Below, piece after piece: positions 1 through 7,766 of a stretch of DNA of 64,000 bases. The translations under genes were made by a program, and so were the position numbers. The stretch is from contig JAIXWR010000036.1 in NCBI GenBank assembly GCA_027491155.1, positions 1 through 64,000 of the forward strand, written 5' to 3'. The notes beneath the pieces are model-generated. The model was not told the DNA's origin and did no database searches. It saw nothing but the letters and a program-made list of their open reading frames with translations. The DNA is from Verrucomicrobiaceae bacterium (GTDB lineage: Bacteria > Verrucomicrobiota > Verrucomicrobiia > Verrucomicrobiales > Akkermansiaceae). Positions within the stretch are counted from its first letter, which is position 1, and each line of letters opens with the position of its first letter.

Positions 1-2
1 AA

Positions 3-188
3 GTGGTTGGACATGATGCAGTAGGAGATCACGCGCAGGCCGCCGAAGCGTTCGTAGGTGCGCATGTATTCGACGAGCTTGTCCTTCTCGTCCTCGCCGA
101 GGACGAAGTCGCGGTTCACTACGCGGGAGACGCAGTGGTAGTAGGCGACGGGGAGGAAGGCGGGAGCTTTGAGGCGTGGCCGGCGCAT
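3..188 (-). mobile_element. RAYT (REP-associated Y1 transposase), N-terminal 62 codons
   Basis: The product from the ATG at 188 has the RAYT start pattern: a basic N-terminus, then YYHCVSRVVNRDF and YCIMSNH immediately before the expected histidine-hydrophobic-histidine site. Such enzymes nick single-stranded DNA through a tyrosine and are linked to dispersed palindromic REP sequences. Several palindromic repeats occur elsewhere in this window (for example near 7.9, 12.7 and 14.3 kb), but a link to this particular enzyme is only a guess. The C-terminal part with the catalytic tyrosine is outside the window. Confidence 0.7.
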
Positions 189-833
189 GGGGGGGAGGAT
201 GGGAAGGTCGGGAGACCGGGGCAAGCTTTCTCTGCAGAGGGACAGGCAGTTTTTTGGACCTCCAGCCGCGAGTTGGGTGCTGCCTACCGCACCAGCTGCA
301 ATTTGTGCCGAGCCTACGGCCCCAACCGCAAGCTGAGTGGTGCCGACAGCGCCGGGCGCGATCTTCGCGGACGTGATTGCGCCATTCGGGACGGTCTGCG
401 CCGTGGCGGCCATCATCGCATACCCTACCGCGGCGATGCGCTGGTCTGGAGTCATCAACTGAAAACCATTCGCACCATCGTTGAACCACACCCGCAGTCT
501 TACATCGGGATTGGCAAAGACCGTTGCGGGAACAGCCGTCATGTTCGGGAGCGTGGCATTACCAAGCAGCACGGAGTAAAGCCCCTTGGCGACGGGGAGC
601 GTGACCGCAGCGGTAGGCTCGCTGCCAGCGACGCTCGTTCCATCGTTACTCCAGAACGTCGTCGTGGCAGTCCCGTCGACGAGGGCGAACTTGAACTGCC
701 CGCTGCCGTCAAAGTTCACCGTGCCCACCGCAACACGGCCTGTGTAGTTGATGAGCTGCGGGACTTGGGCATCCGATAAGTGTGTGAGGACGATCGCCGC
801 GAGCGCGGCTACAAACAGCGTGGGCTTTTTCAT
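3..833 (-). CDS. Secreted GAVG-repeat protein reading in frame into a RAYT transposase (3' end off window)
   Basis: One frame stays open from an ATG at 833 to the left edge. The first ~215 codons begin with a signal peptide (MKKPTLFVAALAAIVLTHLS...). They continue as a secreted protein with an intramolecular-chaperone-like motif (MTPDQRIAAVGYAMMAA) and end in GAVGTTQLAVGAVGSAQIAAG-type repeats, as in tail-fibre or collagen-like surface proteins. The repeat breaks off at AAGG, and about 24 codons of unrelated sequence lead to a second ATG at 188. From there the product reads MRRPRLKAPAFLPVAYYHCV, then FVLGEDEKDKLVEYM and ISYCIMSNH, the N-terminus of a Y1/HUH transposase of the RAYT group. The two ATGs are 645 nt apart, so they share a frame. 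I infer that the transposase inserted into the repeat gene and truncated it. The cut-off HUH motif lies at the edge, so activity cannot be judged. The frame is seen directly; the family names come from motif recognition. Confidence 0.6.
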   Translation of the reverse strand, partial: MKKPTLFVAALAAIVLTHLSDAQVPQLINYTGRVAVGTVNFDGSGQFKFALVDGTATTTFWSNDGTSVAGSEPTAAVTLPVAKGLYSVLLGNATLPNMTAVPATVFANPDVRLRVWFNDGANGFQLMTPDQRIAAVGYAMMAATAQTVPNGAITSAKIAPGAVGTTQLAVGAVGSAQIAAGAVGSTQLAAGGPKNCLSLCRESLPRSPDLPILPPMRRPRLKAPAFLPVAYYHCVSRVVNRDFVLGEDEKDKLVEYMRTYERFGGLRVISYCIMSNH

Positions 834-873
834 GGAGGTGCCGGTTTCTGGTTCAGTGATTCAGTGAATCGGG

Positions 874-893
874 TCAGTTCTATCGGATTCACA
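874..893 (+). repeat. 20-bp direct repeat, copy A
   Basis: TCAGTTCTATCGGATTCACA here matches the copy at 3766-3785 at 19 of 20 positions and in the same orientation. The two copies bracket the HicB-like, methyltransferase and ParB-like genes. This copy lies 41-60 nt upstream of the start codon at 833. It could be an attachment or insertion footprint, or simply a dispersed intergenic repeat. Confidence 0.6.
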
Positions 894-957
894 TTTTTTG
901 GAGAAAGGTATCCAGGGCTGGCGTCCGCTGATGGTGGGGAGGCTGGCCAAGGCGAGA

Positions 958-1167
958 TCATGGGACGGCAACCTCGAGGAGACGGGTTCCTAAGGTGAGG
1001 GGCGGGCCCCTTTCTGCGCGGACTTTCAAACAGCCGCGAATGGCCTCGTGGATGTTCGCCGCAGCATCGTCCTTTGCTTCGCTCTGGCTGATGCAACCGG
1101 ACATAGACGCACATTCGGCGGTCCCAACGCCATCTTCGTCGTGTTTCAAGGTGATCACGAATTTCAT
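958..1167 (-). CDS. HicB-family antitoxin-like protein (solitary)
   Basis: This small protein of about 69 residues starts MKFVITLKHDEDGVGTAE and continues SMSGCISQ, DDAAANIHEAIRGCL. That is the HicB pattern: two strands with a DEDG turn, then xLPGCxSQ, then a helix containing NIxEAI. HicB proteins are the antitoxin partners of HicA mRNA interferases, and some are solitary. I chose the start at 1167 because the HicB fold begins there; an ATG at 1206 would add 13 unrelated residues. No HicA-sized basic ORF is next to it, and the C-terminus is short with no obvious ribbon-helix-helix or HTH domain. It lies 60 nt beyond the methyltransferase stop on the same strand, so it may be the last gene of that unit. 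The family call is good; partner and function are unknown. Confidence 0.6.
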   Translation of the reverse strand: MKFVITLKHDEDGVGTAECASMSGCISQSEAKDDAAANIHEAIRGCLKVRAERGPPLTLGTRLLEVAVP

Positions 1168-1227
1168 GGGGGAACTTTGGCAGCTTGATGGCGCTTTGTC
1201 ATTCATTTCAGTTACAGATGGCTGTGC

Positions 1228-2094
1228 TCAAACAATCTTCAGCGAGCCTCCCATCTTCGGGAGCTTTAGACCACTTGGGGAAATCAGCACCTCGCCGCCC
1301 TTCCGCTTTTCATAGGCTGAATACATCAGGCCGAAGTCCTGGCACTTGGCCCACTCATACAGGGTCCGGATTTCAGGCACGTCGTCGTAGGTCATGATCC
1401 AAGAAAAGCCGGTGCAGCCTCGCACGTGGGCGGCCAGCGCAGCGTGGTCGGCGTGTGTGAAATGGTTCATGTAAAGCCGCGACCCCTTCACGTAGTACGG
1501 CGGATCGAGGTAAACGAACGCTGGATCCTTTCCAGCGATGGCCGGAACCCGGTCGATGAATTCCTTCGCATCCTCGCAGGACACCTCGATGCGATCGCGG
1601 TAGTCTGCCACACGGCTGATCCTTTCCACAAGTCTGGTGCGATCGAATCGGGCATCCAGCTTCCAGTTGCCAGTCTGTTGCTTTCCTCCGATCGGGCCTC
1701 CATTCACCATAATCCCGGAGCGGTTGCACCGATTCAAGTAGAAGGCGGCGAATCCGAGCCTCAGTAGTGACTTTCCATTCGGGTTGAGGTAAATATGCCT
1801 CTGGCGTTCCCACTCGACGATCGTCAACGGAGTAGTCTCGATCAGGGATATGAAGCGCTTGGTGTTTTCCAACGCGGACTTCCAGAAAGCGAAAACCCGT
1901 GGGTCCGCATCGTTAATGGCGATCCGATCCACATGGCCTCCGACCAACAGGCCAATCGCAGCACCTGCGCCTCCTGCAAACGGCTCGGCGTAAAGGCCAC
2001 CTGAAAGGCTATTGATTGAAAGTAATCTGGCGAAGAAATCGGTGAAGGCGGCCTTTCCCCCGGGGTAACGAAGCGGGCTCAGTGTCGGTGTCAT
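1228..2094 (-). CDS. D12-class DNA adenine N6-methyltransferase (Dam-like)
   Basis: At 288 aa it is the usual length for the D12 class. Motif order is RYPGGK at residues 9-14 and AEPFAGGAGAAIGLL at 36-50 (S-adenosylmethionine binding), then DPPY at 197-200, the catalytic motif IV that flips and methylates adenine. The enzyme should transfer a methyl group from SAM to N6 of adenine in a short DNA site; the target sequence cannot be read from the protein. It starts 22 nt after the ParB-like gene on the same strand, which points to co-transcription. No restriction endonuclease of recognisable type is adjacent, so it is either an orphan methylase or the modification arm of an unrecognised system. 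Base composition is visibly less GC-rich than the core genes to the right, consistent with transfer. Confidence 0.9.
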   Translation of the reverse strand: MTPTLSPLRYPGGKAAFTDFFARLLSINSLSGGLYAEPFAGGAGAAIGLLVGGHVDRIAINDADPRVFAFWKSALENTKRFISLIETTPLTIVEWERQRHIYLNPNGKSLLRLGFAAFYLNRCNRSGIMVNGGPIGGKQQTGNWKLDARFDRTRLVERISRVADYRDRIEVSCEDAKEFIDRVPAIAGKDPAFVYLDPPYYVKGSRLYMNHFTHADHAALAAHVRGCTGFSWIMTYDDVPEIRTLYEWAKCQDFGLMYSAYEKRKGGEVLISPSGLKLPKMGGSLKIV

Positions 2095-2116
2095 GCAGAG
2101 CTTCTAGCAGGCAGCT

Positions 2117-3538
2117 TTAGGGCTTCGCCATGAGCAGGGTGATCAAAGGCGTAAGGCTGGTCGCCCGTACCCGGACATCAATACCGGCCGCAGGACACCA
2201 GTTGCTGTGAACCCACCCATTCAGCGATTCGAGGGTTGCCACAGAGTCGGCACCACTAAGAAGTGAGTTTAGAATCCTTTCGATGTTCTTCTCGAATGGG
2301 AACGGTTTCGTTTCGTGAAGCCATTGAATTCGGGTTTTGAGCGTATCACCTCTACCGCGAAGCCATTGCTTGTAGATTCCGATGAGCTGTCGCTCGTGGA
2401 AAGCCACCTCTACCGCGAGTTCCAGCACGCAACGCAACATCACCCCGCCGGTATTCGGATTCCTGCCGACATCGATTCCTTCCACCTCTTTCAGAACGGT
2501 AGCTAGTCTTGGAGCGTGGTACTCGATTACCAAAGATTCAGGGAAGACCTTGGACTTTCGGCGATCGACATGTGCTTTAGGGCGTACCGGGCTGATCGAC
2601 TCGCCGCCCGCGGAATCCTTCGGCGAATCGCGCGTTACATCAAGAGCTTGGATCTGGGCTGAAAGCCTATATGTCTTGCCACCCTTCGGTTTATAGTTGT
2701 TCGCCTGAATCCACTCCTTGGCCTGGTCGACGGTGTTGAACTCTCGGGTCGCCCGGCCTTCGGCCATTTTCTTGAGCGTTTTCCGGTAAAAGTCAGTGAA
2801 TTCTTGCAGATCGCCTTTGATTTGAATTCCGGTCTTGTCGGCTTTCAAACCCAATTCCACACCGGCTTCCTTGGATAGAAATACCCGCTTCACCGCCTCG
2901 TAAGGAAACTCCCGGAGTGATTCCGACTTCAAACCGCTGCCCGCGTCGCGAGACAAGATCCCGGCGAGACGATAGAGTTCCACCATCGCACGTGCGTCGC
3001 GGACTTCTGCATCCGTCAGTTCGATCTCGACTGCTTCTCCCTTTTCTTTGCGGTCCGCCATTGCGCAATCGACGATAGCCTGCTGGATCTTGGCCCATGG
3101 CCTGAAGAATTTGTCTTCAGCGTGCTTCATGTAGGCGTAAATCTTTGCTTCCGCGAGATCAGGTGCGATGTCGCAGCCGACTCTCGACGGCAGCTCACCG
3201 ATCCCTAGTTCATTTCTGGCTACTGTGACGTGTCCAGCAAGTTTCGCCGGCGCCTTCTCCGGAGCGAGCAGCATCTTGCACACCGCAAGCCTCCGATTTC
3301 CCTCAATCACGATCGGCTTTGTGCCGTCGTAAACCACCACCATGCGCTCGATCGGAGCGTAGCCGTTACGGGCAAATTTCTTCAAAAGCTCACCAAGATC
3401 TTCGGCTTCGGCTAGCGCCGCAATAATGGATTTCTCATCCTTGCCCGCGTCCCTTAGTCTCGGATTGTCCAAATCGAACCTTAGGGTGTTCACGGAAATC
3501 ATCCGGTCCCGTATCCATTGGCTGTAGCGAATTTTCAT
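2117..3538 (-). CDS. ParB/Srx-fold protein with an unassigned C-terminal domain
   Basis: The 473-aa protein has an N-terminal ParB/sulfiredoxin-like domain. The segment VNTLRFDLDNPRL (16-28) is followed by a helical linker and VIEGNRRLAVCKML (77-90), the GxRR-type box of ParB-like folds, which in relatives binds or hydrolyses nucleotides or cuts DNA. The middle is helical and charged. The last ~150 residues (from about YHAPRLATVLKEVEGIDV) contain VMLRCVLELAVEVAF and later SLNGWVHS, a pattern I recall from C-termini of uncharacterised ParB-like and defence-associated proteins, but I cannot name the family. There is no clear DNA-binding HTH typical of chromosome-partition ParB and no parA nearby, so a partition role is unlikely. 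It sits first in a run with the adenine methyltransferase (22-nt gap). I infer a modification-linked nuclease or regulator; this is not shown. Confidence 0.6.
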   Translation of the reverse strand: MKIRYSQWIRDRMISVNTLRFDLDNPRLRDAGKDEKSIIAALAEAEDLGELLKKFARNGYAPIERMVVVYDGTKPIVIEGNRRLAVCKMLLAPEKAPAKLAGHVTVARNELGIGELPSRVGCDIAPDLAEAKIYAYMKHAEDKFFRPWAKIQQAIVDCAMADRKEKGEAVEIELTDAEVRDARAMVELYRLAGILSRDAGSGLKSESLREFPYEAVKRVFLSKEAGVELGLKADKTGIQIKGDLQEFTDFYRKTLKKMAEGRATREFNTVDQAKEWIQANNYKPKGGKTYRLSAQIQALDVTRDSPKDSAGGESISPVRPKAHVDRRKSKVFPESLVIEYHAPRLATVLKEVEGIDVGRNPNTGGVMLRCVLELAVEVAFHERQLIGIYKQWLRGRGDTLKTRIQWLHETKPFPFEKNIERILNSLLSGADSVATLESLNGWVHSNWCPAAGIDVRVRATSLTPLITLLMAKP

Positions 3539-3875
3539 GGCTGACTGGCTGGTCTAGAAGTATCGCCCAGGGCTCTAACCGGCCAGCCCTTTCTCCCTCA
3601 TAACGCGAGCAAGCATGGGAACATCTCTCTTGTGTGACTATTCGGCCGGTCTTTTCGTCGATGCAGCTTTAGCCCTCCGCCTCGGCGGTATCCTGGAACT
3701 GAGCGACGTTGCCGGCCATCTCGCGGAAGTGAATGGGGACGTAGGGACAGGGGCCATGATTGGGTTCAGTTCTATCGGATTTACACTTCTCCGAGGGATG
3801 ATGCCTCCGCGACGCAGCAATGGACCGTCTCGACGAGATCACCGGCCCCGGCAACACCAACCGATCCGCCACTTC
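3539..3875. other. Gene-poor stretch with repeat copy B and a possible gene remnant
   Basis: No full gene is convincing here. On the minus strand, about 3669-3760 reads GPCPYVPIHFREMAGNVAQF and then QDTAEAEG before a TAA, with GC-rich third positions. That looks like the 3' end of a former gene whose start is missing, or a very short unknown ORF. The direct-repeat copy B (3766-3785) lies immediately upstream of it. Next to the ParB-like gene (3540-3640) I see nothing recognisable; it probably holds that gene's promoter. Confidence 0.3.
3766..3785 (+). repeat. 20-bp direct repeat, copy B
   Basis: TCAGTTCTATCGGATTTACA differs from the copy at 874-893 at one position. Both copies are preceded by a run of Gs. 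The spacing between copies is about 2.9 kb and encloses the lower-GC cassette. Confidence 0.6.
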
Positions 3876-5132
3876 TCAGGCGAACAGCTCCCTGATCGGG
3901 CTCGCTTCCTTGCGGACGAGGCGCATCGGGCGGCCTTGGGCGGTGATGACTTCCTTGTTCAGGTCGATGCCGAGCGCGTGGCAGATGGTGGCGTGGAGGT
4001 CGGGCACCTTGACGGGGCGCTCGGCGGGTTCCATGCCGTCGGCGTCGGAGGCGCCGATGATCGAGCCGCCCTTGATGCCGCCGCCGGCCATCAGGCAGCC
4101 GAAGCAGGCCGCCCAGTGGTCGCGGCCGCCGGCGTCGTTGATGCGCGGGGTGCGGCCGAACTCGCTGAGCACGACGACCAGCGTCTTTTCGAGCAGGCCG
4201 TTGGCCTTGAGGTCGGAGATCAGGGACGCGATGCCGGGATCCATGACCGCGCCGTGGTCGCGCATCGCCTGGAAGATGTTGCCGTGGTTGTCGAAGCCGC
4301 CGCGGTTGACCTGGACGAAGCGGACGCCCTTTTCGACGAGGCGGCGGGCGAGCAGGGCGCCGCGGCCGAATTCGGTGTTGCCGTAGCGCTCGATGGTCTG
4401 CGGCGATTCCTCGTCGAGTTCGAAGGCCTTGAGCGCGGGGCTTTCCATCAGGGCGACGGCATCCTTGAGCGCGATCTCGGTGGCCTTCATGTCGTTCGCG
4501 CCGACGCTGCCGGAGGTCCGGGCGTTCATCTTCTCGAGGATCTGCAGGCGCTGCATGCCGCGGGCGTGGCTGATGCCTTCGGGGAAGGCGAGGTAGGGAT
4601 CCTTCTCGCCGGGCCGGCCGACGAAGTAGGCCTCGCATTTCTGGCCGAGGTAGCCGGCGCGGGCGGCCTGGCCGCTGATGCTGACGAAGGCGGGCAGGTC
4701 GCCGAGCGGCTGGCGTTCGGAGACGACGATCGAGCCGAGCCCCGGGTGGAGGATGTTCGGCGTCTGGCCGAAGCCGGTCTGGAGTTCGTACTGGGCGCGG
4801 CCGTGGTCGCCATTGGTGCCGGCGATCGAGCGGATCAGCGCGGCGTGGTGCATCTGCTTGGCGAGTTGCGGGAAGATCTCGGAGATCTCCATGCCGGAGA
4901 CCGAGGTCTTGATCGGCGCGAATTCACCCTGGACCTTGCGGCCGGGCTTCGGGTCCCAGGTGTCGAGGTGGCTCATCCCGCCGCTGTTCCAGAACAGGAT
5001 GACGTGCTCGGCGCGGCCCTTGCCGGGGTTCGCCTGGGCCAGGAGCTGGCTGACCGGCATGCCGAGGATCGACGCGCTGAACATTTTCAGCAGGCGGCGG
5101 CGGGTGATCTGGTAGTCGGTGCAGGCACTCAT
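3876..5132 (-). CDS. DUF1501 sulfatase-like exported protein
   Basis: This 418-aa protein starts with a Tat-type signal (TRRRLLKMFSASILGMPVSQ) and then shows the DUF1501 signature: FWNSGGMSHLDTWDPKPG, the FDNHGNIFQAM segment, and VVVLSEFGRTPRIND near the C-terminus. DUF1501 belongs to the alkaline phosphatase/sulfatase superfold and is abundant in Planctomycetes and Verrucomicrobia. Metal-ligand candidates (D/H in SHLDTWD and GRDHW) are present. It is paired on the same strand with the DUF1549/DUF1553 cytochrome protein upstream, the usual arrangement for these two families, and separated from it by a 186-nt gap holding an inverted repeat. The substrate is unknown; degradation of complex polysaccharide is often suggested from context. 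Family assignment is firm, function is not. Confidence 0.9.
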   Translation of the reverse strand: MSACTDYQITRRRLLKMFSASILGMPVSQLLAQANPGKGRAEHVILFWNSGGMSHLDTWDPKPGRKVQGEFAPIKTSVSGMEISEIFPQLAKQMHHAALIRSIAGTNGDHGRAQYELQTGFGQTPNILHPGLGSIVVSERQPLGDLPAFVSISGQAARAGYLGQKCEAYFVGRPGEKDPYLAFPEGISHARGMQRLQILEKMNARTSGSVGANDMKATEIALKDAVALMESPALKAFELDEESPQTIERYGNTEFGRGALLARRLVEKGVRFVQVNRGGFDNHGNIFQAMRDHGAVMDPGIASLISDLKANGLLEKTLVVVLSEFGRTPRINDAGGRDHWAACFGCLMAGGGIKGGSIIGASDADGMEPAERPVKVPDLHATICHALGIDLNKEVITAQGRPMRLVRKEASPIRELFA

Positions 5133-5318: not shown

Positions 5319-7766
5319 TCAGGGCAGGAAGCGGAATTCGTGGCTGTTGAGCAGGGCCCAGCGGAGGTCGGCCATGCCTTCGAAAGGATCGGCCGCCAGC
5401 AGGGCGCGGGCGTCGGCGAGTTCTTCGGAAACGGGGCGGCGGGTGAGGATTTCGAGGTAGGCGTGCTCGATCGCGAGGTCGTGGTCTTTCAGCAGGATCC
5501 GGTGGAGCGGCTCCAGCGGGCCGACCCGGGAGGCCTCGTGGGTCATGCGGCCGTTGAGCATCATGAGCTGCTGGCGGAGCGACGAGGAGGTGTCGCGGAA
5601 CTCGCCGAGCCCGGCGCGTTCCGGCTGGCCGAAGACGCGCAGGAAATGGGCCGGCGGCGCGGGGGTGGCCATGTGCATCGCGCTGTCGAAGCGCGGGTTG
5701 TCGTCGATGGTTTCGGTGACCGTCTCGGTTTTGAAGGTCATCGTGTTGCCCTGCGCGTCGCGGTTCATCGCCGCCATTTTCTCGGCTTCGATCTGCTCGT
5801 CGGACATCGCGCGCATCGACTCCAGTTCGCCCTGTTCCTTCTTGGTGAGCAGGGCGTTGAAATCGAGCTTCAGGGTGGATTCGAGGTCGTAGCCGTCGCC
5901 GCGCATCGCGGGGGATTCCTTCATCGCGGTTTCCTTGCCGTCGGGCGGCGGGGTGGCGGCGGATTCGCCGGTCGGGACCCGGATCTCGCGGGTGATCTCT
6001 TTCGGATTCGCCCCGGCCGGCCATTTGAAATCGGCGAGGTGGCCGGCGGCGACCACGCTGTCGAACAGCACCTCGCCGAGCATCCGGCGGGTGGTGGCGG
6101 CGGAGAAGGCCTTCTCGCTTTCCTCGCGTTGTACGACGGGCGTCGTAGCCGGCAGCGAGGCGCGGCGGTAGGTGTCGGAAAGGGTGATGACCCGGATCAG
6201 GTGGCGGAGGTCGTAGCCGTTGGCGATGAACTCGCGGGACAGGAACTCGAGGGTCGTGGGATGGCGCGGCGGGTTGTAGGCGGAGAAATTGTCGAGCGGA
6301 TCGACGAAGCCGCGGCCGGTCAGCTCGGCCCAGACGCGGTTGACGAAGGCCTGGGCGAAGTGGTCGTTGCGGGGATCGGTGACGAGCCGGGCCAGCTCGG
6401 CGCGGAGTTCGCTGCTGCGGTAGATGTCCGCGTGGACATCGAGGGCCCGGCTTTCCCGCTCCGCTTCCTCCAGCACCGGGTCGCGCGGGGTGCCGGCGGC
6501 GGGTTCGACGGCATCGAGCAGCGCGTCGAGTTCGGCGGCCTCCTTGCCGGAGGTGGCGGCCTGTTGTTCCCCGCGGCGGAGGGCTTCGAGGCGGACGAGG
6601 TGGGCGGGCTTGGTCTTCGATTCCTCGAACTTGAAGGGGAAGCGCGGGGTGACCGGATGCCGGGTCTTGCCGGCGGCCTTGTCCTCGGGCGGCCAGAGCA
6701 CCGCCGACTCGTCGCCTTCGGTGGTGTAAACCATGCCTTCCTGGCGGCCCTGGACCTTGCGGGTTTTCCCGAAGTAGGCGGCGAACTCGTAGAAGTCCTT
6801 CTGGCGCCAGTCGTCGAAAGGATGGTCGTGGCACATCGCGCAGCCGATGCGGACGCCCATGAAGACCTGGGCGGAGGAGGCGGCGAGCTCCATCGGGTTG
6901 ACGTCGTCGCCGAGCAGGTAACCGACCGCGGGGTTCGAGTTGGCGCGGCCGGAAGCGGCGATCAGCTCGCGGACCAGCTCGTCGTAGGGTTTTCCCTGCG
7001 CGATCGAGCCGTGGATGTAGGCCAGCAACTGGTTCCCGCCGGGGATCGCCGAGCGGATCCGCAGCATGTCGGCCATGAAGACGGTCCAGCGGTCGGCGAA
7101 GCGCGGGTGGTCGAGCAGCTTCGCGACCAGCTTTTCGCGGCGGTCGTCGCCCTGGCTTTCATACTCGCGGATCTCCGCCACGGTGGGGATCCGGCCGATC
7201 AGGTCGATGGTGGCGCGGCGGAGGAAAGCGGTGTCGTCCACGGGATCGGTCGTGATCACCGGGGTCCCGGCGTTCTCGCGTTTCAGGATGTCATCGAGCA
7301 TCGCCGCCGCTTCCGCGGGCGAGGCCGGGGCTTTTTCCGGCATGGCGACGCGCTTCGGCGCGGGGGGCGTGCGCTGGGTCAGCGTGAGGCCTTCCGGCCA
7401 AGGGGCGCCGGCGCGGACCCAGGCGTCGAGGAGTTCGACCTGTTCCTTGGTCAGCGCCTGGCCTTCGTCGGGCATCACGCCTTCGTCGATCGGGCGGAGG
7501 TGGACGCGGACCAGCAGCTCGCTTTTGGCGGTGTCGCCGGGGACGACCGCCGCGGCCGTGTCGCCGCCGTCGAGCAGGCCCTTGCGGGTGTCCAGCCGGA
7601 GCCCGCCCTTGTCCTTTTCGCCGTTGTGGCAGCGGACGCAGTTCAGCTCGAGGATCGGCTGGATCTGCGACGCGAAATCCGGGGCCGCGGCGCTGGCGAC
7701 GGCGGCCAATGTGAGACCTCCGGCGAGAAAGGGGATGGCGGGTTTGAGGGGCACGGCGCGAATCAA
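5319..7766 (-). CDS. Planctomycete-type cytochrome c with DUF1549 and DUF1553 domains
   Basis: The 815-aa exported protein has a signal peptide (to about residue 28), then a PSCyt1-type cytochrome c segment with CVRCH at 43-47 and the typical HNGEKDKGGLRLDTRKGLL continuation. DUF1549 follows (FLRRATIDLIGRIP), with a second CxxCH (GCAMCHDHPFDDW). DUF1553 forms the C-terminal half (DPRNDHFAQAFVNRVWAELT; LTRRPVSEELADARALLAAD; ending ALLNSHEFRFLP). Length and order match the family. It is the partner of the DUF1501 gene downstream on the same strand. The two are thought to act together in the periplasm or a compartment on polysaccharide or other complex substrates, but no reaction is established. 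Heme attachment at two sites is inferred from the motifs. Confidence 0.9.
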   Translation of the reverse strand: MIRAVPLKPAIPFLAGGLTLAAVASAAAPDFASQIQPILELNCVRCHNGEKDKGGLRLDTRKGLLDGGDTAAAVVPGDTAKSELLVRVHLRPIDEGVMPDEGQALTKEQVELLDAWVRAGAPWPEGLTLTQRTPPAPKRVAMPEKAPASPAEAAAMLDDILKRENAGTPVITTDPVDDTAFLRRATIDLIGRIPTVAEIREYESQGDDRREKLVAKLLDHPRFADRWTVFMADMLRIRSAIPGGNQLLAYIHGSIAQGKPYDELVRELIAASGRANSNPAVGYLLGDDVNPMELAASSAQVFMGVRIGCAMCHDHPFDDWRQKDFYEFAAYFGKTRKVQGRQEGMVYTTEGDESAVLWPPEDKAAGKTRHPVTPRFPFKFEESKTKPAHLVRLEALRRGEQQAATSGKEAAELDALLDAVEPAAGTPRDPVLEEAERESRALDVHADIYRSSELRAELARLVTDPRNDHFAQAFVNRVWAELTGRGFVDPLDNFSAYNPPRHPTTLEFLSREFIANGYDLRHLIRVITLSDTYRRASLPATTPVVQREESEKAFSAATTRRMLGEVLFDSVVAAGHLADFKWPAGANPKEITREIRVPTGESAATPPPDGKETAMKESPAMRGDGYDLESTLKLDFNALLTKKEQGELESMRAMSDEQIEAEKMAAMNRDAQGNTMTFKTETVTETIDDNPRFDSAMHMATPAPPAHFLRVFGQPERAGLGEFRDTSSSLRQQLMMLNGRMTHEASRVGPLEPLHRILLKDHDLAIEHAYLEILTRRPVSEELADARALLAADPFEGMADLRWALLNSHEFRFLP

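Follow-up and report, generated by a model that had tools for sequence, protein, structure and literature searches.

What is the low-GC (guanine plus cytosine) cassette near the left end of contig JAIXWR010000036.1 of a Verrucomicrobiaceae bacterium, and which of its genes belong together? We addressed this question within the first 64,000 nucleotides (nt) of the contig, hereafter the window, whose coordinates are used throughout. The cassette holds three genes, all on the minus strand: gene A (2117..3538; 473 amino acids, aa), gene B (1228..2094; 288 aa) and a small HicB-like gene (958..1167) within an open reading frame (ORF) that is open from 1206 (958-1206, 82 aa). A and B are 22 nt apart, and B and the HicB-like ORF are separated by 21 nt as annotated, or by 60 nt if HicB begins at an internal Met. 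The GC content is 0.555 for 865-3795 versus 0.661 for the whole window, and when equal-length stretches were taken in 100-base steps, the six with the lowest GC (0.556-0.561) all overlapped the cassette. These figures bear out the three close same-strand genes and the low GC described in a first-pass annotation, which also suggested that the genes could form an undescribed defence or regulatory island. The best explanation of the cassette is that a two-gene PD-λ-5 defence system, consisting of A and B, was taken up as a low-GC unit beside a DUF1501 gene.

Both proteins matched the components of this system in PADLOC. A aligned to PD-Lambda-5_A (PDLC04007; E 7.2e-36) over residues 13-467 of 473, covering positions 5-443 of 454, and B aligned to PD-Lambda-5_B (PDLC04018; E 6.1e-108) over residues 1-281 of 288. 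B is a D12-class adenine DNA methyltransferase homologue, as the first-pass annotation had proposed, with EPFAGGAG and DPPY motifs and a match to Pfam PF02086 (D12 methyltransferase; E 1e-16); its matches to orphan-methylase models were far weaker (E 6e-16 vs 6e-108). For A there was no Pfam match above the cut-off and no significant NCBIfam match. We put the probability that A and B are a new but sequence-distant member of PD-λ-5 at roughly 95%. The PADLOC matches place the pair in a defence family, in keeping with the proposed defence role, and by the same token we rejected the idea of an undescribed system. As in other loci of the family, both components are present in the same order, on one strand and tightly spaced, with the methylase motifs in place. 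Unlike those loci, the window pair sits in a repeat-bordered slot with an extra orphan HicB gene downstream, by eye no phage gene was noticed in the window's first 8 kb, and window A is only 17-28% identical to the relatives compared, that of locus L150 (57%) excepted. The best A profile found a single match in the window's own genome. Across 387 genomes of the phylum it matched 13, own genome included, 11 of them over part of the profile only. The cassette adds one distant member to PD-λ-5.

A functional selection performed in E. coli brought PD-λ-5 to light (Vassallo et al., 2022; PMC9519451). According to the accessible text of that report, the system changed plaque size or plating for all but one of ten phages, and the authors, who used an mrr-deleted host, considered that it appears to be a compacted restriction-modification plus abortive infection (RM+Abi) system. 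The accessible part of a 2013 survey (PMC3710099) records ParB-HEPN fusions (Saro_3948), places the MAE_28990-type HEPN in an operon that also has genes for a ParB nuclease and for DNA methylase, and suggests that the RNase is set free once restriction is neutralised. Other publications, as far as their text was accessible, either used PD-λ-5 as a label or repeated the RM/Abi remark. Our literature search, for which subscription literature was mostly outside reach so that absence is unproven, returned no PD-λ-5 mechanism beyond 'RM+Abi' and no ParB-HEPN-methylase system beyond the cited papers.

We examined the association of A with B in two sets of loci. An A-led, alignment-based scan of viral contigs gave 124 confirmed relatives, scanning bacterial genomes with B yielded 338, and the best 80 of each were used; the resulting 160 loci are ranked by query similarity and not random, and the viral set includes near-copies. 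A single-protein viral scan with A gave no confirmed relative. Alignment A4 comprised 22 viral A proteins, omitting the near-copies L033, L038 and L083 and the split L060. We refer to A as full-type where it, or a split piece of it, matches the C-terminal domain profile (A5, from which L063 and L098 were left out for their divergent C-termini). Full-type A lay within 3.5 kb of B in 53 of the 80 genome loci, twice (L181, L228) as split reading frames, and in all 53 it was upstream of B, on the same strand and no more than 100 nt away. B was also present in every viral locus with full-type A (24/24), and 23 of these had A followed by B on one strand within 100 nt; L076 had B on the opposite strand. 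The first-pass annotation had linked the ParB-like protein to the D12 methylase and held that a distinct system would be ruled out if the two seldom co-occurred or if the proteins matched a partition set. The link is genuine: the two genes are often found together, and what they match is a defence system. Verrucomicrobia, Planctomycetes, Proteobacteria, Chloroflexi, Bacteroidetes, Actinobacteria and Nitrospira are among the groups named in the titles of the 80 genome loci. A tblastn search with A found one plasmid and one phage, and the A-B pair is also present on a plasmid of Vibrio and in the Marinobacter phage AS1. The closest A+B among the best 80 of the 338 was L150, a Verrucomicrobiaceae metagenome-assembled genome, in which A (57% identical) and B (67%) are adjacent.

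The structure predicted for A supports a ParB-type fold in its N-terminal half. In an AlphaFold2 model from 23 sequences (mean predicted local distance difference test score, pLDDT, 82.8), residues 10-287 matched ParB-type proteins, including 7bnr (Z 9.6, 95 aligned, root-mean-square deviation (rmsd) 2.0), 5k5d (Z 9.4, 197 aligned, rmsd 4.4) and KorB 8qa9 (Z 8.8, 193 aligned, rmsd 5.4). The family profile matched the ParB chain 4umk (E 3e-4), which together with the 7bnr match agrees with the earlier description of A as ParB-like. ParB_N was matched at E ≤0.1 in 4 of 23 members, window A not being one of them, and a PDB sequence search with A gave no match. From the 7bnr match and conservation, residues 10-144 (3107..3511, minus strand) are assigned a ParB/Srx-type fold that contains E79-G-N-R-R83 and H139. 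We counted conserved residues in 72 sequences, namely window A and the ORFs of at least 380 aa with a C-domain match (73 ORFs, 71 unique), so that invariance holds within this selection: E79, G80, H139 and W148 were present in 72/72, N81, R83 and R218 in 71/72, and R82 in 70/72. ParB proteins carry a GERR motif with a catalytic Glu. A resembles the ParB/KorB/Noc CTPase clamps in the predicted fold of residues 10-287 and in its GxRR motif, and differs from them in reading GNRR, with Asn in place of Glu, and in its HEPN-like tail. The N-terminal half of A probably binds nucleotide.

The C-terminal domain of A (residues 332-473; 2120..2545, minus strand) had been called unassigned; modelling supports the prediction of a HEPN-like helical domain. 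Modelled alone (pLDDT 91), it gave a structural list of 28 rows, of which the first 11 were HEPN-superfamily entries (Z 6.0-8.5) and the twelfth a designed protein (Z 4.1); for complexes, the matched chain was assumed to be the HEPN partner. By title these 11 rows amount to about four distinct proteins, namely the 2q00/2jpu protein, two HepT-type toxins (eight entries) and MtlR, and 2q00 and MtlR are classed as HEPN in the accessible part of PMC3710099. The full-length model of A also matched the LsoA toxin (Z 5.3, 115 aligned, rmsd 4.0). In sequence comparisons, the C-domain profile had 14 PDB matches at E ≤10 (best 0.006), no HEPN protein among them, and Pfam searches with 21 C-domains found DUF4145 in one (E 0.0045), DUF5677 in two (best E 0.05) and otherwise scattered matches. 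Members are 13-22% identical to the window's domain. Across the 72 sequences, E351, R369 and H444 were present in all, and position 373 was E in 66 and D in 6. The domain resembles the HEPN toxins (HepT, LsoA/RnlA) in predicted fold; unlike them, it is fused to a ParB-type half, 66 of the 72 family members are without the Rx4-6H motif, and no separate antitoxin was seen with A. Several HEPN families partly or wholly lack Rx4-6H according to a table in the accessible text of PMC3710099.

Not all relatives of A carry this domain. C-less relatives, which we term A', are usually 357-411 aa long; the gene that follows them, T, encodes about 300-355 aa. Of the 160 loci, 70 had T, and C-less A' was present in all 70. 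A' matched PD-Lambda-5_A through its N-half as well as the PADLOC candidate PDC-M38A, and it had weak PHROGs matches to phage ParB-like partition families (L036 A', E 1e-7). Examples of T lie in L036 (7096-8115) and L067 (7046-7975), with assignments phrog_14650 / phrog_3984. When five T proteins were tested, one had a weak match to Mrr_cat (E 0.14) and another an unrelated weak match; against PADLOC four of five had no match and one matched two unrelated models at E 0.006-0.007, and two further T proteins had no PADLOC match at 0.001. Among 64 unique T ORFs of 280-400 aa (out of 69), D199, D203 and R292 were invariant and Q226 was present in 63. T may be a nuclease, acting as a restriction-type partner.

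The C-less A' and T form a sister module of PD-λ-5 with swappable methylases. It shares with PD-λ-5 the ParB-type half and often the same D12 methylase family, and differs in that its effector is in a separate gene and its methylase may be of the C5 type. Of the 25 viral A'/T loci that lack B, 24 had an ORF bearing a C5-methyltransferase motif within 2 kb. C-less A' with T was the only form of A in 14 of the 80 genome loci, and seven of the 80 (L182, L196, L201, L207, L210, L211 and L214) held full-type A, B, A' and T together. These four-gene loci suggest one mark serving two effectors, and the shared methylase, together with C5 replacing D12 in the sister module, fits a shared self-mark. Four viral loci (L063, L074, L088, L098) had C-less A with B and no T match, and three (L035, L040, L087), in which A is cut by the contig end, had neither B nor T. 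Some C-less loci, among them L016, L073, L079 and L167, have their methylase gene upstream of A', not downstream.

Family identity, the observed gene content, order and linkage, the modelled folds, the invariant residues, the shared-methylase loci and the published HEPN-ParB-methylase linkage together point to a mechanism to which we give even odds: B marks self DNA, and A, on meeting unmarked DNA, frees a HEPN-like RNase. B would methylate adenine within a certain site of host DNA; protection of self sites by the methylase, as the first-pass annotation had it, is the likely logic. A would scan DNA through its ParB-type half and middle domain, possibly with the use of nucleotide, and sense unmarked DNA. 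Unmarked phage DNA would then lead to release of the C-terminal HEPN-like domain and cutting of RNA, and RNA cleavage would stop phage growth, with the infected cell paying the cost. A broader interpretation, which we offer tentatively and hold to be somewhat short of an even chance, is that the family works as a modular platform for sensing methylation. In it, a ParB-type clamp would read the methylase mark and drive one of two exchangeable effectors: the clamp protein's own HEPN-like RNase, its active site rewired (E-R-E-H for Rx4-6H), or the separate nuclease-like T. Some bacteria would run both off one methylase, combining restriction with back-up suicide. If so, a ParB nucleotide switch would serve as an immune sensor. 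The wider yield is a testable model of PD-λ-5, bearing on the residues needed for activity, the half that senses DNA and the reason for having the methylase, and the A'/T module and the seven dual-effector loci are natural comparisons that separate sensor from effector.

Several observations weigh against this reading of folds and function. The best Foldseek E for the ParB part was weak (0.006). For the C-domain it was 2.6 or worse, so the HEPN fold is a supported prediction, not proof; the structural comparison tool itself warns that Z below about 13 may reflect a common arrangement in helical bundles, and LsoA was not among the rows for the C-domain alone (193 chains compared). Rx4-6H occurs in only 6 of the 72 C-domains, window A being without it, so RNase activity is not assured. 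Two genome loci (L206, L225) and two viral loci (L063, L098) have a long A beside B with neither a C-domain match nor T. Finally, 11 of the 80 genome B loci had no A in the available sequence, some of them near a contig end. In four of these 11 (L166, L190, L224, L226), an AAA_15/AAA_21 ATPase gene lies directly upstream of B, possibly as another methylase-linked pair.

The same genes could instead make up a compact restriction-modification system, in which A would cut or nick unmethylated DNA through its ParB/Srx half, the C-domain having only a regulatory or dimerising role; we consider this unlikely. Members of the ParB/Srx superfamily catalyse single-strand DNA nicking (PMC12839542, accessible text), and the pairing of C-less A' with the nuclease-like T (invariant D199/D203) ties the ParB-type half to DNA attack. 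Pfam detected no endonuclease domain in any of the three cassette proteins, although A could still nick DNA through its ParB/Srx fold. The same pairing can be read in the opposite direction, since C-less A' accompanies T at 70/70 T loci as if the ParB half alone were not a nuclease. Moreover, four invariant polar residues in C-domains that are 13-22% identical go beyond the needs of a scaffold.

It is also conceivable, but improbable, that the cassette is decaying and its PD-λ-5 system no longer works in this host. The borders appear rearranged, with a likely truncated hicA, repeats and a transposase-gene fragment nearby, while A and B are both open over their full length and A retains the family-invariant residues. 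We regard as very improbable that the cassette is a partition or regulatory island, with A serving in segregation or transcription as an ordinary ParB-like factor and B as an orphan methylase with a regulatory role. The modelled ParB-type fold of A does align to KorB over 193 residues, B does match orphan-methylase models, if far more weakly than PD-Lambda-5_B, and the A' of L036 weakly matches partition families. Over nearly its full length, however, A matches a defence family and a phage family whose function is unknown, and its C-terminal domain is predicted to be HEPN-like.

The small gene downstream of B most likely encodes an antitoxin left from a broken hicBA pair, outside the PD-λ-5 system, as its relatives precede hicA, a likely hicA remnant follows it here and none of the 160 loci with A or B holds a HicB homologue (phmmer, E ≤1). 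The HicB-like protein matched Pfam at E 0.002, below the cut-off, and phrog_497 at E 0.001. HicB relatives begin at the internal Met, which makes 958-1167 more likely than 958-1206 as the extent of the gene. Matches to HicB were found in 10 of 38 related genomes, own included, and hicA (PF07927) followed hicB in all three relatives read (L108, E 1.3e-17; L109, E 1.3e-17; L111, E 5.1e-15). After the window's HicB, the frame reads ASLPTISGRQ and continues into the repeat at 865-903. Compared with two HicA N-termini, these 10 aa ranked 2nd of 110,424 window frames, and they lie where hicA would be expected; the rank is suggestive only, as the compared stretch was picked after the site was seen. 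To judge from the sequence, hicA was probably cut to about 11 codons (918..950, minus strand), ending short of the repeat. The cassette thus shares a HicB-like protein with HicAB toxin-antitoxin systems and, unlike them, has no intact hicA beside hicB. The first-pass annotation's inclusion of HicB as a third component fails on this absence from 160 loci and pairing with hicA; that the three genes act jointly, with HicB as antitoxin or regulator of A, is hardly credible despite the shared strand and short B-HicB gap, L150 having a HipA-like kinase gene downstream of A-B in place of HicB.

Upstream of the cassette lie a DUF1501 gene (3876-5132; Pfam E 8.5e-107) and then an ORF at 5319-7766. Window base 1 is the contig start, so nothing further left is visible; positions 1-187, cut by the contig start, resemble Y1_Tnp transposase-gene copies elsewhere in the genome (L009-L011). 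Promoter and terminator scans gave matches at chance level only, and Rfam gave none in window 1-5000.

The cassette is bordered by a 39-nt direct repeat, whose left copy (865..903) is 79% identical to the right copy (3757..3795), just beyond the 3' end of the DUF1501 gene. Its 19-nt core occurs in the genome at these two sites only (≤1 mismatch). Five of 18 genomes of the genus carry the repeat (≤2 mismatches; a reversed control gave no match), G389 with ten copies (L136, L139, L142-L149); L116/L137 are also loci of this repeat. In genome G391, whose DUF1501 protein is 96% identical to the window's, the corresponding site consists of a repeat, two small overlapping ORFs (87 and 163 aa, toxin-antitoxin-like by eye), a 365-nt stretch that is 89% identical to window 3761-4125 (the DUF1501 3' end), and a second repeat. 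The repeat appears to be mobile and dispersed and to mark a slot at which cassettes are exchanged. In two genomes this repeat, of the TGTGAATCCGATAGAACTGACCC type, flanks small defence-type cassettes that differ from one another but lie next to the same DUF1501 gene.

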